A program made the translations under genes and the position numbers. The notes beneath the pieces were generated by a model. That model searched no databases, had not been told where the DNA came from, and worked only from the letters and a program-made list of their open reading frames with translations. From IMG/VR virus record IMGVR_UViG_3300037119_002665, positions 1 to 41,294 of that record: DNA of 41,294 nucleotides; one strand, 5' to 3'. This document shows, in pieces, positions 4,020-41,017 of this stretch; the stretch's first letter is position 1, and each line of letters opens with the position of its first letter. This stretch comes from a virus.

Positions 4020-4023
4020 TATT

Positions 4024-4162
4024 GGGGGAGTATCTCAAAAAGGATTTACTGTAATGGAGCATATGTTTAATATGGGACACTTGTTATACTCCCCCCGTAT
4101 AAACACCCTTGGGAGTATGTGCTCTGAAAATTAGGTTGATATCTCATGGCGTAAAATTAAAC
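4024..4162 (+). promoter_or_regulatory. Four-copy control element, copy A (upstream of 4189)
   Basis: This is one of four related upstream regions. GGGAGTAT at 4026-4033 is followed 60 bases later by inverted ATACTCCC at 4086-4093, which starts 103 bases before the ATG at 4189. GGGAGTAT recurs at 4111-4118, giving an 8-bp stem with the second box. Then come CTGAAAATT (4124-4132), ATATC (4139-4143) and TAAAATTAAAC (4152-4162), which match copy C at 19122-19218 in order and spacing. An AAGGAG ribosome-binding site follows at 4175. It could be a promoter with a conserved leader, an operator pair, or a structured 5' UTR. Confidence 0.75.
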
Positions 4163-4188
4163 CACTGTCTTTTCAAGGAGTAATATCC

Positions 4189-4494
4189 ATGGCTCTCAAT
4201 GGCGGTGCGATGGGAGGACTTAGAACTAAATCCTTAGATGAGTCTTTTGGATCTCAAGTATCACGAGAGTCTAGGGAATCTATTACTACTAGAGTTATGA
4301 GGTTACAAGAAATTACTTATAACAATAACCACCGTCTTAGCTCCTTACTCGAAAGGATCAGAGGACCCATCCCTGAGGTAGGAAGTAATAAAGCTGATGT
4401 GCCTCCTATGACTATGGATGATTTTATGCACATCACTGAGATGAACTTACAGATTCAAGATCATTTGATTATGCAGTTAGAACAGTTAATCTAG
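4189..4494 (+). CDS. Hypothetical protein, 101 aa
   Basis: This single gene is preceded by its own element (copy A) and an AAGGAG site, and followed by a strong terminator, so it is an independent transcription unit. The N-terminus is Gly/Ser-rich and the rest helical, with possible coiled coil in the last third. There is no membrane segment or cysteine motif. The element it shares with a head-region gene, the giant virion gene and primase suggests expression with those genes. Function unknown. Confidence 0.8.
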   Translation: MALNGGAMGGLRTKSLDESFGSQVSRESRESITTRVMRLQEITYNNNHRLSSLLERIRGPIPEVGSNKADVPPMTMDDFMHITEMNLQIQDHLIMQLEQLI

Positions 4495-12502: not shown

Positions 12503-12676
12503 TTTACACTGCTCCTTTCTTCCTGCTGCCTAGTCTTTAATCAATAGGAAGGAATGCTCGGCATTATCGAGCCGGTATTAGGGGGTACACCCTAGGGAGT
12601 ATTAACCACTGTCCCGGGATCCGGCTTGTTGATTCATACGAGACAGAGCTTGTACTCCCCCAAGGGCGTATTAAAG
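12503..12676 (-). promoter_or_regulatory. Four-copy control element, copy B (upstream of the giant virion gene)
   Basis: On the minus strand ATACTCCC begins at 12602, exactly 100 bases before the ATG at 12502. Inverted GGGAGTAC begins at 12659, 57 bases further upstream, inside CCCTTGGGGGAGTAC and GCTCTG, which resembles CCCTTGGGAGTAT and GCTCTG of copy A. The AT-rich boxes of copies A, C and D are not recognisable here. The 174-base gap has no coding potential that I could see and ends with AAAGGAG before the start. A promoter or operator is the likely role. Confidence 0.65.
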
Positions 12677-19121: not shown

Positions 19122-19218
19122 TTGTTTCCTCCAAATGCAGGAGTTTAATTTTATGATTGAGGATATTGATCAAATTTTCAGTGCACACGCTCCCTAGTGT
19201 ATTTTCTAAAGGGAGTAT
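19122..19218 (-). promoter_or_regulatory. Four-copy control element, copy C (upstream of decoration-like gene)
   Basis: On the minus strand ATACTCCC begins at 19218, 97 bases before the ATG at 19121. It is followed by CACTAGGGAG (complement ends near 19190), GTGC, CTGAAAATT (complement of 19173-19181), ATATC and TAAAATTAAAC (complement of 19143-19153), then GGAGG. The order, spacing (19 bases between the AT boxes) and sequence match copy A, and most of the same stretch matches copy D. ATACTCCCT can pair with AGGGAG downstream in a 6-bp stem. Confidence 0.75.
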
Positions 19219-19251
19219 AGCGCCCTTCTCAAAAGGATAATATCCTCAATC
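19155..19251. repeat. 13-bp perfect inverted repeat flanking copy C
   Basis: GATTGAGGATATT (19155-19167) is inverted as AATATCCTCAATC (19239-19251), with 71 bases between. The same ATTGAGGATA core occurs in copy D at 34889-34898. The arms bracket the ATACTCCC/GGGAG hairpin, so either a long stem or a pair of protein-binding sites is possible. Confidence 0.75.
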
Positions 19252-25360: not shown

Positions 25361-27691
25361 CTAAGGATGCACTTGCCAAGCGGGAACACAAATTGTAGCA
25401 GGACGACAAGCAATAAGATCTAAGGCTCGAATATGTGGAGCAATAGACCTAATAAACACTTCAACATGGTAATCGGCTGAAGAATTATTAACAGCTCCCG
25501 GAGCTGTAGTAAACTGACCTGGGTGTTGATAGATTACTCTAGTAGTCTGACGAAAATTTTCTGCTAAGGCAGAAGCAACTACATTACCATTAGAAGCAGG
25601 TCGATTAGCTCCATTAGGGTCTGCAATATAACTAGAACCCCACTCTGTTCGAGTCTTTTCAGCCATAACACTACCACCCTTTAAACCTAGTACTGTTAAG
25701 GCTCTAGCTTCACCATCATCCATGTAAGCATTTCTACCGCTAACACCTTGTAAGATTGAGTTTACAGCCACAGCCTCAATAGTCCTATTGCCTACCCTAA
25801 TAATTCTCTTTTCTCCACCCCTCTTAAACCAAGTAGCTGCAACCATACTATCCCGATCCTGGTCTGCTGTACCATACCCGGGCCAGAGAGTTCCGGCTGA
25901 ATATCCCCACGGAGCACTCATAGAAATACGGAAAGTAACTTTACCATACCCTGATGTCTGCTGCCCATTCAACCCATAATCTAGTGCCCAGATTATGGAA
26001 TCAATGGGACAACTAGCAGCAGCTGAATAGAATAGAGTCCACAAAGGATTAGACGTAGTAGGCCTAGCTCTCCAGTTTACTGGGAGGAACTGATTAGCAG
26101 GGCTAGCTAAGTAGGGTGGAATAAGAGATTCGGGAGATTCAGCTTTCCGTAATGAATCGGAATAAGCTAATCGCTGGACAATCCCATACCTACCACCAGC
26201 CCCAAAGTTTGGAGACCCGGGTTGACCATTGGAAGTAGGATCATAACGAGAAGCAAACCTATGCCCCATGATCTCAATATTCTGAGCTCCCTGAGTAAGC
26301 TGATATCCATTGCCAGGATTGTACCCCCCAAAACCGCCAATTAAGTTTGAAGAAATATTACTTTGAGTAGAGTCATGAGAATGGTGTGCCCAAGTAAGCT
26401 TCTTCAAATAACTATGAGGGGGCCCAGTCCACTGGGGTTCATAATCAGGAGTACGCCCATCTAGGTATGCAGCAGCGTTTCTAGGGTTAATATTATTAGT
26501 AGGAACAATGCCATATGCTTTCAAAGCAACTAAAGATGACTCAGCTGCACTATTCCTCCAACGAGGGTAGACAGGCGAGTTGTTAATATCAGTAACATCA
26601 TCCCAATCGTAAGCCCACTTGATAGGATCAACAGTAGTGAACTTACACATTAGAGCCCAGATCAGGTGAGTAAGCTCATCCCCAGGATTAACATTATCAA
26701 CTACCTTGACAAAGTAAGCCCACTGAGGAGAAGTACCTCCACCTCCCACTCCGCGCCCGGGACTAGCTAAGGAATTAATCCAAGTAGTCACACTCTGCCC
26801 TGAGTACTGAGTGTAATGAACTTTCCAGATAGGGCTTAACAATTCACCAGGCCCAGCAACAGAGTCTCCCTTAGTAGCCGCTAAAGCTCTAGCAAAACTA
26901 CCAGGAGTCCAGTCAGCCCCATAAGATGTGTTCCAAGAACCAGGAGGACGGTAAGTAGTTGAGTCAACATTACCTACAAAGAAAGAAGTTCCTGAAGTTG
27001 TAATAGGCCTAAGCAACCTTACAACTTGATCGACTCCAGTAGGAAGAACCCCAATCCTCTGACCAGAAGTTCCCCTCTTACACCAGAGAGTATCTTGGTC
27101 ATCAAGGCTAACAAGTCCTGCACCTGATGTAGAAGAAACAAAAATATTACCATAACGACAAGAATCTACAAGCCCTCGTTCATTAGTACAAGGAGGACCT
27201 GAAGTACATTGCCAAGTTTGCCCAGAGCCCATCTCTGCTCCACCAATAACAATTAACTGGCCATTAGTAGAGTCAGCACAGAAGTAACGAGTCATTGCAG
27301 TAGTTACTGTTGTAGGATAAAGAACTAATACTGCAGCATACTGGCTACCAATATCGGTCCACATCTCACGATGATCAAAGTCTGTTTCAAAGAAAGTGCT
27401 CTTGTACCAATGAATCTCTCCGCCCTGAGCTCTGAAAGCATCAATGGCAGGAACAACATTTCTAATAACCGAAAGCTTAATGTTATTACTCTGCACATCC
27501 CAACGTTGAAGCTGAATAACCGCAATCCTCTTATCTCGAGAAACTGAAGAAGCTTGATAGGGTAAACATCCCACTGGAGTCAGACCAGCGGGGCTTGACC
27601 CACAGAAAGGAGGATTAGTAGCTGCCAATGCAACCGGACTCTGCATGGCTACAATCAAGAAAATAGAAATAACTTTACGAAAAAGGTTCAT
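25361..27691 (-). CDS. Secreted 776-aa protein with polysaccharide-deacetylase-like motifs
   Basis: A Sec signal peptide (VISIFLIVAMQSPVALA, cleavage about residue 24) starts the protein, unusual for a virion gene. The body is Gly, Ser, Thr and Trp-rich with several cysteines. YDWDDVTDIN and LTWAHHSHDS resemble the metal-binding Asp and His-x-x-x-His pieces of NodB-like polysaccharide deacetylases, but the order and spacing cannot be verified by eye. An N-terminal segment (VLVLYPTTVTT, IVIGGAEMG) looks like a glutamine-amidotransferase-like flavodoxin fold. It sits upstream of terS with a TAATG overlap to a second signal-peptide protein. Confidence 0.6.
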   Translation of the reverse strand: MNLFRKVISIFLIVAMQSPVALAATNPPFCGSSPAGLTPVGCLPYQASSVSRDKRIAVIQLQRWDVQSNNIKLSVIRNVVPAIDAFRAQGGEIHWYKSTFFETDFDHREMWTDIGSQYAAVLVLYPTTVTTAMTRYFCADSTNGQLIVIGGAEMGSGQTWQCTSGPPCTNERGLVDSCRYGNIFVSSTSGAGLVSLDDQDTLWCKRGTSGQRIGVLPTGVDQVVRLLRPITTSGTSFFVGNVDSTTYRPPGSWNTSYGADWTPGSFARALAATKGDSVAGPGELLSPIWKVHYTQYSGQSVTTWINSLASPGRGVGGGGTSPQWAYFVKVVDNVNPGDELTHLIWALMCKFTTVDPIKWAYDWDDVTDINNSPVYPRWRNSAAESSLVALKAYGIVPTNNINPRNAAAYLDGRTPDYEPQWTGPPHSYLKKLTWAHHSHDSTQSNISSNLIGGFGGYNPGNGYQLTQGAQNIEIMGHRFASRYDPTSNGQPGSPNFGAGGRYGIVQRLAYSDSLRKAESPESLIPPYLASPANQFLPVNWRARPTTSNPLWTLFYSAAASCPIDSIIWALDYGLNGQQTSGYGKVTFRISMSAPWGYSAGTLWPGYGTADQDRDSMVAATWFKRGGEKRIIRVGNRTIEAVAVNSILQGVSGRNAYMDDGEARALTVLGLKGGSVMAEKTRTEWGSSYIADPNGANRPASNGNVVASALAENFRQTTRVIYQHPGQFTTAPGAVNNSSADYHVEVFIRSIAPHIRALDLIACRPATICVPAWQVHP

Positions 27692-30712: not shown

Positions 30713-30771
30713 CAGAGGTTATACTCAAAACAGTCAGGTAAAAATCTGGTTTACTTTGAGTATAACCTCTG
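30713..30771. repeat. Perfect 17-bp inverted repeat overlapping promoter P2
   Basis: CAGAGGTTATACTCAAA (30713-30729) is repeated inverted as TTTGAGTATAACCTCTG (30755-30771), with a 25-base loop. The right arm is the spacer and part of the -35/-10 of promoter P2, so the repeat is either an operator with two half-sites, a hairpin ending the upstream transcript, or both. Confidence 0.9.
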
Positions 30772-30778
30772 ATAATAT
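30750..30778 (+). promoter_or_regulatory. Early promoter P2 (spacer-motif family)
   Basis: TTTACT (30750-30755), 17 bases, TAATAT (30773-30778). The preceding CTGG plus the -35 and most of the spacer are repeated at P3 (33034-33066). A palindromic arm covers the spacer, so regulator binding would block or guide RNA polymerase. It precedes the gene at 30851. Confidence 0.7.
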
Positions 30779-31459: not shown

Positions 31460-31534
31460 GCTCCTGTAGCTCAATGGTTAGAGCCCATCGCTTATAACGG
31501 TGTGATCTTGGTTCAATTCCAAGCGGGAGTACCA
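31460..31534 (+). tRNA. tRNA-Ile (anticodon TAT)
   Basis: A 75-nt cloverleaf with encoded CCA: acceptor GCTCCTG/CGGGAGT, D stem GCTC/GAGC, anticodon stem CATCG/CGGTG with loop CTTATAA (anticodon TAT), T stem CTTGG/CCAAG with loop TTCAATT. It would read AUA. One G-U in the acceptor and one in the anticodon stem are tolerated. Reading AUA would need a host or phage route to keep U34, since bacterial AUA is usually read by modified CAU. Confidence 0.88.
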
Positions 31535-32846: not shown

Positions 32847-33032
32847 ATGAAAGAACAGGAGATAGCTGTAATCAAAGGTTGTGAGCACCCTAATGTATAC
32901 CCATATTCTACTCCGGGGACATTTTGGAAATGCTCAAGTTGTGGAGAAACTTTTTACTTACATCCATGGGATCATAGTAAACATGGTATCTTATGCTCAC
33001 CAGAAACTTGTGGTGGTCCTCCGAAGAAATAA
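32847..33032 (+). CDS. Small zinc-binding protein, 61 aa
   Basis: Cysteines and histidines at CEHP, CSSCGETFYLHP, HSKHGILC and CGGPPKK suggest one zinc site. The ATG at 32847 lies 11 bases after the previous stop and has only a weak ribosome-binding site; a longer frame from 32808 overlaps the preceding gene. Function unknown. Confidence 0.6.
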   Translation: MKEQEIAVIKGCEHPNVYPYSTPGTFWKCSSCGETFYLHPWDHSKHGILCSPETCGGPPKK

Positions 33033-33037
33033 ACTGG

Positions 33038-33066
33038 TTTACTTTGTGATTAACCTATGATAATAT
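33038..33066 (+). promoter_or_regulatory. Early promoter P3 (spacer-motif family)
   Basis: TTTACT (33038-33043), 17 bases, TAATAT (33061-33066). CTGGTTTACTTTG (33034-33046) is identical to P2, and TTAACCTATGATAATAT matches the P2 TATAACCTCTGATAATAT. The inverted arm of P2 is missing here. It drives a run of small zinc-ribbon genes. Confidence 0.7.
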
Positions 33067-33654: not shown

Positions 33655-33925
33655 CCTCACCACATGACCCTATACCACCTAGATTTGAGCCCTGGTAATC
33701 GGCCCTGGTTCTTGGTGCGTCCTGCAGACCCATCAAGCCTTTGTCGACACGCTGGGGCTCTCTATATGATGGTTGGTGAGATGGGCAGTACAGTTGTTCT
33801 CTTAAATCATAACTCTCTTGAGTTAGCCTAGGAGTTATGAGCCAACCTTTCTTTTCCGTAGGGTAATGACCCCTACCCGCTGCAGAGTCGGATACTCTGT
33901 GACCCCTCAGTAGGAGGCTACTAGA
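33655..33925 (+). ncRNA. Hairpin-rich leader or ncRNA before the acidic protein gene
   Basis: The 270-base stretch has no convincing gene on either strand. GAGCCC (33685-33690) and GGGCTC (33756-33761) can close a stem of about 75 nt. TCATAACTC/GAGTTATGA (33807-33815 with 33832-33840) is followed 7 bases later by TTTCTTTT, like a terminator. GTAGGG/CCCTAC (33858-33863, 33871-33876) and CAGAGT/ACTCTG (33883-33888, 33894-33899) follow. It may be a leader with an attenuator, or a separate small RNA ending near 33856. Confidence 0.55.
33807..33855 (+). terminator. Terminator-like hairpin in the leader
   Basis: A 9-bp stem (TCATAACTC/GAGTTATGA) with a 16-base loop is followed 7 bases later by TTTCTTTT at 33848-33855. 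As a factor-independent terminator it would end a short RNA from P4 or attenuate the downstream gene. The gap before the U tract weakens the call. Confidence 0.45.
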
Positions 33926-34312: not shown

Positions 34313-34373
34313 CAAGAAGCTACCTACCTCTGGTGAGTAACCAGTATAGGTGAGTACTTCCCAGCTGTACCCG

Positions 34374-34445
34374 GGGTAGGTTGGTACGGGGTTCTCAAGA
34401 GTGGTTTAGTCACTCTTACCCGGGCTAGCCTACCCTTTCTTTTTC
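34374..34445 (+). terminator. Long hairpin with U tract (terminator or attenuator)
   Basis: GGGTAGG (34374-34380) pairs with CCTACCC (34429-34435). Inside, AAGAGTG (34397-34403) pairs with CACTCTT (34411-34417), with GGGT/ACCC between. TTTCTTTTT follows directly (34436-34444). It separates the acidic gene from the PC4-like gene. Since no promoter fits between it and 34462, it may be a leaky terminator or attenuator. Confidence 0.65.
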
Positions 34446-34461
34446 CCTCGAGGAGCCTACA

Positions 34462-34818
34462 ATGTCCATGGATGAGAAGGATCAAGAACCAGCTGACTTG
34501 GAAAAGCAATTGGATAAAGAAGAAACCATTATTCAAAGTATCGAAAGAGGGCCCCAACAACGACAAGAAGGAAGAGTAGTCCGTCACCTCCCCGCTGTAC
34601 TCCATTCGTTTCCTACCCTCCGTCGAGGAAAGCAACAACTTCGTGTACGGATTGTGCAATATCCCCGATCCGAACCGCTCCTCGATATCCGTGAGTTTAT
34701 CACCGGCGAAACGTTCAATGGGTTCTCCAAGAAGGGGATCACAATCAACTTGGAGCAAGCTACTTCTCTGTTCGAGAATGTAGAGTTGATCATGAAAGCC
34801 CTTAGTGGTAATGATTAA
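34462..34818 (+). CDS. PC4/Sub1-like ssDNA-binding protein, 118 aa
   Basis: The C-terminal half (about residues 66-114) has the PC4/p15 pattern: LLDIREFITGETFNGFSKKG then ITINLEQATSLFENVELIM. In PC4 folds this is a beta-hairpin pair plus helix which binds single-stranded DNA, often as a dimer. The N-terminal half is charged and Gln/Arg-rich. GAGGAG precedes the ATG. It may coat ssDNA, or act as a transcription cofactor. Role in late transcription would be an attractive inference, since no phage RNA polymerase is seen. Confidence 0.65.
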   Translation: MSMDEKDQEPADLEKQLDKEETIIQSIERGPQQRQEGRVVRHLPAVLHSFPTLRRGKQQLRVRIVQYPRSEPLLDIREFITGETFNGFSKKGITINLEQATSLFENVELIMKALSGND

Positions 34819-34833
34819 ACTCTGCGATTATTC

Positions 34834-34992
34834 GGGAGTATAATACGGGAACGAATCCCATGTATGCGAGATATGGCTTCCCAAGTTAATTGAGGATACT
34901 CCCAAGTATATACTCCCTTGGCGAAGAGTACCTGATTAATTTGATCCATATCCCCAATCCCTAAATTAATCCTGAATCTCTACGGAGTAGAA
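34834..34992 (+). promoter_or_regulatory. Four-copy control element, copy D (upstream of primase)
   Basis: GGGAGTAT at 34834-34841 overlaps a TATAAT (34839-34844). ATACTCCC at 34896-34903 lies 97 bases before the primase ATG, and a second one is at 34910-34917. CTGATTAATT (34932-34941), CATATCC and TAAATTAAT (34962-34970) match copy C (CTGAAAATTTGATCAATATCC, TAAAATTAAAC) in order and spacing. ATTGAGGATA precedes the first ATACTCCC, as in the arms around copy C. Confidence 0.7.
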
Positions 34993-40941: not shown

Positions 40942-41017
40942 GCCCCGGTAGCCCAACGGCAGAGGCAGAAGACTTAAAATCTTCACAGTGTGGGTTCGAA
41001 TCCCACTCGGGGTACCA
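40942..41017 (+). tRNA. tRNA, anticodon TAA (Leu, class I shape)
   Basis: A 76-nt cloverleaf with CCA: acceptor GCCCCGG/TCGGGGT, D stem GCC/GGC, anticodon stem GAAGA/TCTTC with loop CTTAAAA (anticodon TAA, reads UUA), T stem GTGGG/CCCAC with loop TTCGAAT. The variable loop is only 5 nt, whereas bacterial tRNA-Leu normally has a long variable arm. Either an unusual Leu tRNA or one charged by another synthetase. It is not a stop suppressor. Confidence 0.85.

Follow-up and report, generated by a model that had tools for sequence, protein, structure and literature searches.

A repeated intergenic element in two long operons of an uncultured phage that probably acts as RNA

An element of about 165 nt recurs in four intergenic gaps of an uncultured phage genome and in two contigs of its relatives, L032 and L064. 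The element probably acts as RNA. Our preferred reading, to which we give just short of an even chance, is that it is a lineage-specific intergenic mRNA hairpin cassette that controls the next gene, and we infer the step concerned to be processing or translation. Because of the strict spacing of the sequence boxes in the element, DNA-level roles together retain roughly one third of the probability.

Results

The first 126 bases of the window (the whole 41,294-nt stretch of DNA analysed here) match its last 126 bases, and contig L031, which is 100% identical to the window, spans the join. Therefore, the window is the complete circular genome, about 41.2 kb, of an uncultured phage. The (−) operon extends from about 28.9 kb down to 4.5 kb and contains terminase, portal, major capsid, and tail-type genes. 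The (+) operon extends from about 31 kb via the join to 4.5 kb and encodes primase, thymidylate synthase, dCMP deaminase, DNA polymerase, single-stranded DNA-binding protein, DnaB-type helicase, dUTPase, and a RuvC-like resolvase. Neither an RNA polymerase nor a sigma factor was found among the profile matches of the window proteins, many genes having no family. A search of the whole window with Rfam 15 at the gathering threshold detected two tRNAs only, tRNA-Ile (31460–31534; anticodon TAT, which decodes ATA) and tRNA-Leu (40942–41017; anticodon TAA); L032 and L009 gave none. A 776-aa protein encoded at 25364–27691 (−) has no Pfam or PHROG match and is kept in L064/L066 at 42%.

The window contains the central box of the element, ATACTCCC, 10 times, versus a mean of 1.61 expected from dinucleotide shuffles, and none of 100 shuffles reached 10, so the recurrence described in an earlier note on this DNA withstands a shuffled-sequence control. 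Eight of the 10 occurrences lie inside four intergenic gaps of 169 (U4189), 174 (U12502), 162 (U19121), and 174 nt (U34993), which make up 1.6% of the window. As the earlier note had reported, the box begins 103, 100, 97, and 97 nt before the starts at 4189(+), 12502(−), 19121(−), and 34993(+), respectively. U4189 (4020–4188, + strand) occupies a whole gap upstream of the last gene of the (+) operon, which encodes a 101-aa protein of no family. It harbors an up-box GGGAGTAT (4026–4033), the central box (4086–4093), a third box, GGGAGTAT, as down-box and alternative partner of ATACTCCC (4111–4118), and a group of downstream boxes at 4124–4162, namely CTGAAAATT, ATATC (4139), and TAAAATTAAAC (4152). 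U12502 (12503–12676, − strand), a probable but diverged copy with the central box at 12595–12602 and the up-box GGGAGTAC at 12652–12659, precedes the gene for a 1561-aa protein with a weak tail-fibre match. U19121 (19122–19283, − strand) fills the gap that separates the major capsid gene from the gene after it (136 aa). Here, the left arm GATTGAGGATATT (19239–19251) and the right arm AATATCCTCAATC (19155–19167) of stem P1, both assigned from the fold and the inverted repeat I16, enclose the central box (19211–19218), and the unpaired box TAAAATTAAAC lies at 19143–19153. U34993 (34819–34992, + strand) lies between a PC4-like gene and the primase gene, with the up-box GGGAGTAT at 34834–34841, the central box at 34896–34903, a second ATACTCCC 14 nt further on (34910–34917), and the ATATCC and TAAATTAATCC boxes at 34948–34972. 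The PC4-like (transcriptional coactivator p15) gene directly upstream of this copy (34462–34818; E 2.6e-6) is 65% identical to its counterpart in L032.

Alignment of the copies revealed a strict order of boxes in the downstream half. In all five clear members (all copies except U12502), ATACTCCC is followed by a CTSAAAA or CTGATTAA box at 36–38 nt, by ATATC at 52–53 nt, and by TAAAWTWAA at 65–66 nt, and the spacings of 52 and 65 nt are kept with no net indels despite a variable interior. The distance from ATACTCCC to the start codon varies from 97 to 130 nt (130 in L064), and the conserved boxes span 31–130 nt ahead of the start codon; it is the box-to-box spacing, rather than the fixed distance to the start codon proposed earlier, that is conserved. 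The downstream boxes previously ascribed to three copies were only partly borne out: exact CTGAAAATT and TAAAATTAAAC are present in U4189 and U19121 only, and U34993 has CTGATTAATT and TAAATTAATCC instead. The upstream half is looser. The inverted box noted before in three copies, an up-box complementary to ATACTCCC, was confirmed 60 nt upstream in U4189, 62 nt upstream in U34993, and, as GGGAGTAC, 57 nt upstream in U12502; L032 and U19121 have a degenerate form of it, and L064 has essentially none. The strictness of the downstream spacing exceeds what a loop requires and could reflect DNA geometry.

Conservation in relatives, by which the earlier note had proposed to judge the element, held. 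Leave-one-out profile searches of 769 kb recovered the copies of L064 (E 3e-13) and L032 (4e-11) as well as U19121 (2.6e-15), U4189 (2.3e-11), and U34993 (6.3e-5). U12502 was placed at its exact position and strand with E of 0.07–8 and in most of these searches ranked near the top of the non-member matches, and it aligns directly with the L032 copy (pairwise; 0 of 1000 shuffles as good). Gap-to-gap pairwise alignments beat 1000 shuffles for U4189/U19121 and U19121/U34993, U12502 being linked mainly via L032. A sequence-only profile made from the two capsid-linked copies found L032, U4189, and U34993 in 380 kb (1e-9, 9e-9, and 2e-6, respectively) and otherwise matched only palindromic complement strands. 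These sequence comparisons indicate, almost certainly, a single family with five clear members, to which U12502 quite probably belongs as well. The earlier argument against gene duplication stands as far as the adjacent genes are concerned, but the elements are homologous copies of one another.

In L032, whose DNA polymerase is 61% identical, the element separates the PC4-like gene from the primase gene, as in the window; in L064, whose major capsid protein (MCP) is 84% identical to that of the window, it directly follows the MCP gene. The pattern common to L032 and U19121, TTGAGAAGGG-N{2,7}-TATACTCCC, is found in exactly two contigs of the viral collection, L032 and L064, which come from the same metagenome and are likely pieces of one phage. 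Profile searches detected no element after the MCP gene of eight relatives with 62–74% identical MCP (L009, L010, L011, L012, L067, L068, L069, and L070), where the gaps are short. Since L032 and L064 carry the element and these eight do not, its conservation is confined to a narrow lineage, outside which it was gained or lost. An exact-pattern scan of viral contigs that included the downstream boxes found none, blastn of two copies against annotated phages gave zero matches, and GTDB genomes searched by polymerase yielded distant homologues only. A mobile element with terminal inverted repeats was also considered and rejected, as the arms differ among the copies and no target duplication was seen.

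Consensus scans detected neither a sigma-70-like promoter nor a terminator-like site (GC stem and U run) inside any element, and a permissive Rfam search near two elements gave nothing credible. The suggestion that TATACT serves as a −10 region was not upheld, there being no conserved −35 partner. Among the possibilities raised before (promoter class, dual operator, or leader RNA), a leader or intergenic RNA is the best supported; a promoter class is supported neither by consensus nor by position, since a late promoter class is expected upstream of the first structural gene, where the element was not found, nor was it found in the early region. Still, a DNA-level promoter class for middle or late genes, in which an unrecognised factor would contact the TATACTCCC box, ATATCC, and TAAAAT at fixed spacing, is unlikely rather than negligible: it would account for the invariant ATACTCCC, for the near-constant 52–53 and 65–66 nt over a variable interior, and for the orientation of the four copies toward the next gene, and TAAAAT is a fair −10 hexamer. 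Besides its lack of sigma-70-like sites and its position, this reading has against it that RNA polymerases and sigma factors are missing from the profile matches, several genes being without a family, that it leaves the sense-strand folding described below unexplained, and that the lineage has another promoter-like repeat. The latter is a 39-nt direct repeat, 85% identical, at 30740–30778 and 33028–33066 (TTTACT ... GATAATAT), with counterparts in L032 (about 1040–1080) and L065. Leader-peptide attenuation was rejected separately: short ATG frames were seen by eye in every copy, most lacked a Shine-Dalgarno sequence, and the frames disagreed.

The sense RNA of four of the six copies (L064, U19121, L032, and U34993) is predicted to form one long irregular hairpin, that is, the long irregular double-stranded stem in a transcript that is a feature of RNase III sites. 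Single-sequence folds share a common plan of three stems: the ATATC box contributes to the outer one and ATACTCCC, paired downstream in these four copies with a probability of 0.74–0.87, to the apical one, with a middle stem in between. The z scores of the sense core were −4.56 (L064), −5.14 (U19121), −4.48 (L032), and −3.71 (U34993), and the antisense core was weaker in all four (−3.07, −4.54, −4.35, and −1.25, respectively); 40 coding windows used as background had a mean z of −0.45, none being below −3. In L064, U19121, and L032, the left arm complements the right arm better than shuffles do, U34993 being borderline, and the arms of L032 pair best with each other (−28.8), not with the arms of another copy. 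In U4189 and U12502, where the long hairpin is not formed, ATACTCCC pairs with the up-box (probability 0.98 and 0.86, respectively). In all six folds, ATACTCCC is paired and TAAAWTWAA is mostly unpaired. Because adding the L064-type structure to the model lowered the scores of other members (L032 from 37 to 30 bits, U4189 from 34.3 to 26.7, and U34993 from 26.5 to 19.2), the modelled hairpin is to be regarded as a shared tendency and not as a pair-by-pair conserved structure. The covariance search proposed earlier brought no gain in score over sequence alone. With four to six sequences, a formal covariation test has no power, and we claim no covariation.

The two ways of pairing could be read as a two-state RNA switch, in which AUACUCCC has two alternative partners, the up-box about 60 nt upstream and the down-box about 20 nt downstream, and the choice between them, made by a phage protein or the state of translation, turns the next gene on or off. 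The centre is indeed paired upstream in two copies and downstream in four, and both partners are available in U4189 and U34993 and, more weakly, in L032. However, a single state fully dominates the prediction within each copy, a convincing up-box is missing in L064 and U19121 (p 0.42 and 0.11), and there is no known ligand or protein partner; we regard such a switch as improbable. A new family of phage RNA regulon, in which one phage factor would flip AUACUCCC between its upstream and downstream partner boxes and thereby jointly set the expression of the primase, the 1561-aa protein, the gene that follows the capsid gene, and the gene at the end of the (+) operon, is slightly more doubtful still. 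Similarly doubtful is an operator at ATACTCCC and GGGAGTAT for a DNA-binding phage regulator, possibly with looping. It fits the inverted boxes 57–62 bp apart in three copies, the extra inverted box at 4111, and the extra direct box at 34910, but the up-box is degenerate or essentially absent in the remaining copies, no integrase or repressor match was found among the scanned proteins and hence no obvious regulator, and such an operator would explain neither the conserved arms nor the A/U-rich box.

Discussion

Our preferred reading, the mRNA hairpin cassette, may work as follows. The element would be a repeated cis-acting cassette that lies in intergenic gaps of both long operons and is read into the mRNA. 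The hairpin may mark a boundary of processing or stability, by an RNase III-type cut or by blocking an exonuclease, with the A/U-rich box (TAAAWTWAA) predicted to stay unpaired between the hairpin and the ribosome-binding site. This box could then give the downstream gene its own accessible ribosome-binding site, and the genes so served (those for the primase, the 1561-aa protein, and the 101-aa protein, and the post-capsid gene) would therefore be expressed independently of their operon neighbours.

Phage T7 has several similar irregular intergenic hairpins in one mRNA, which are processed by RNase III ahead of ribosome-binding sites. The element resembles these in its several predicted irregular intergenic hairpins ahead of ribosome-binding sites; unlike in T7, no single-subunit RNA polymerase is recognised in this phage, and RNase III cleavage is here something we only infer. 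The put RNA of HK022 and the nut sites of lambda are likewise structured RNAs in phage operons, a likeness to the predicted folds here that was compared by Rfam only. A put-like or nut-like antitermination RNA, by which the polymerase passes operon-internal terminators, would suit sense-strand hairpins within long operons, one of which also has a strong terminator-like hairpin (about 34370–34447), but it is very improbable, as the elements are mid-operon and at least one copy is not upstream of a terminator, U34993 lying downstream of the one at 34370–34447.

Two described groups of phage repeats invite comparison. Promoter-early stem-loops (PeSL) of T4-like phages are cassettes of an early promoter and a terminator-type stem-loop (PMC4503421, citing Arbiol 2010 and Comeau 2014). 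Measured against that summary, the element is likewise a repeated intergenic stem-loop cassette at unlinked phage sites that some relatives have and others lack, but the four gaps here contain no sigma-70-type early promoter and no terminator-type stem-loop, and the two copies searched have no sequence match among annotated phages. Start-associated sequences (SAS) of cluster K mycobacteriophages are 13 bp long, lie 3–7 bp before the start codon, and overlap the ribosome-binding site, and extended start-associated sequences (ESAS) are 17-bp inverted repeats with a 4–13 bp spacer in most sites, whose arms do not support RNA pairing (PMC3203893). Like SAS/ESAS, whose function is unknown, the element has inverted repeats upstream of selected start codons and is found at orthologous genes; unlike SAS, its ATACTCCC lies 97–130 nt and its boxes 31–130 nt from the start codon, and unlike ESAS, the arms of I16 in U19121 are 71 nt apart and a fold is predicted for the sense RNA. 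The defining features of both groups were tested, and the element belongs to neither.

The element provides a compact case of how gene expression might be timed or set in lytic phages for which no RNA polymerase of their own is recognised: a repeat before unlinked genes is kept at the orthologous places of a relative and absent slightly further out. Its box spacing, family profile, and arm pairs make specific mutants testable.

Two other stretches share structure with L032. The intergenic RNA of 34316–34447, conserved with L032 (2262–2365), is structured in both, with fold z scores of −3.4 and −4.0, and at its end a strong terminator-type hairpin precedes a T-rich run (TTTCTTTTT). As its 5' part ACCTACC is complementary, by eye, to GGTAGGT of the terminator stem, it may be an attenuator or antiterminator. 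The stretch at 33768–33906 (L032 1702–1830), upstream of an acidic-protein gene and inside a 651-nt block 70% identical to L032, has a shared hairpin plan with fold z scores of only −1.8 and −0.8.
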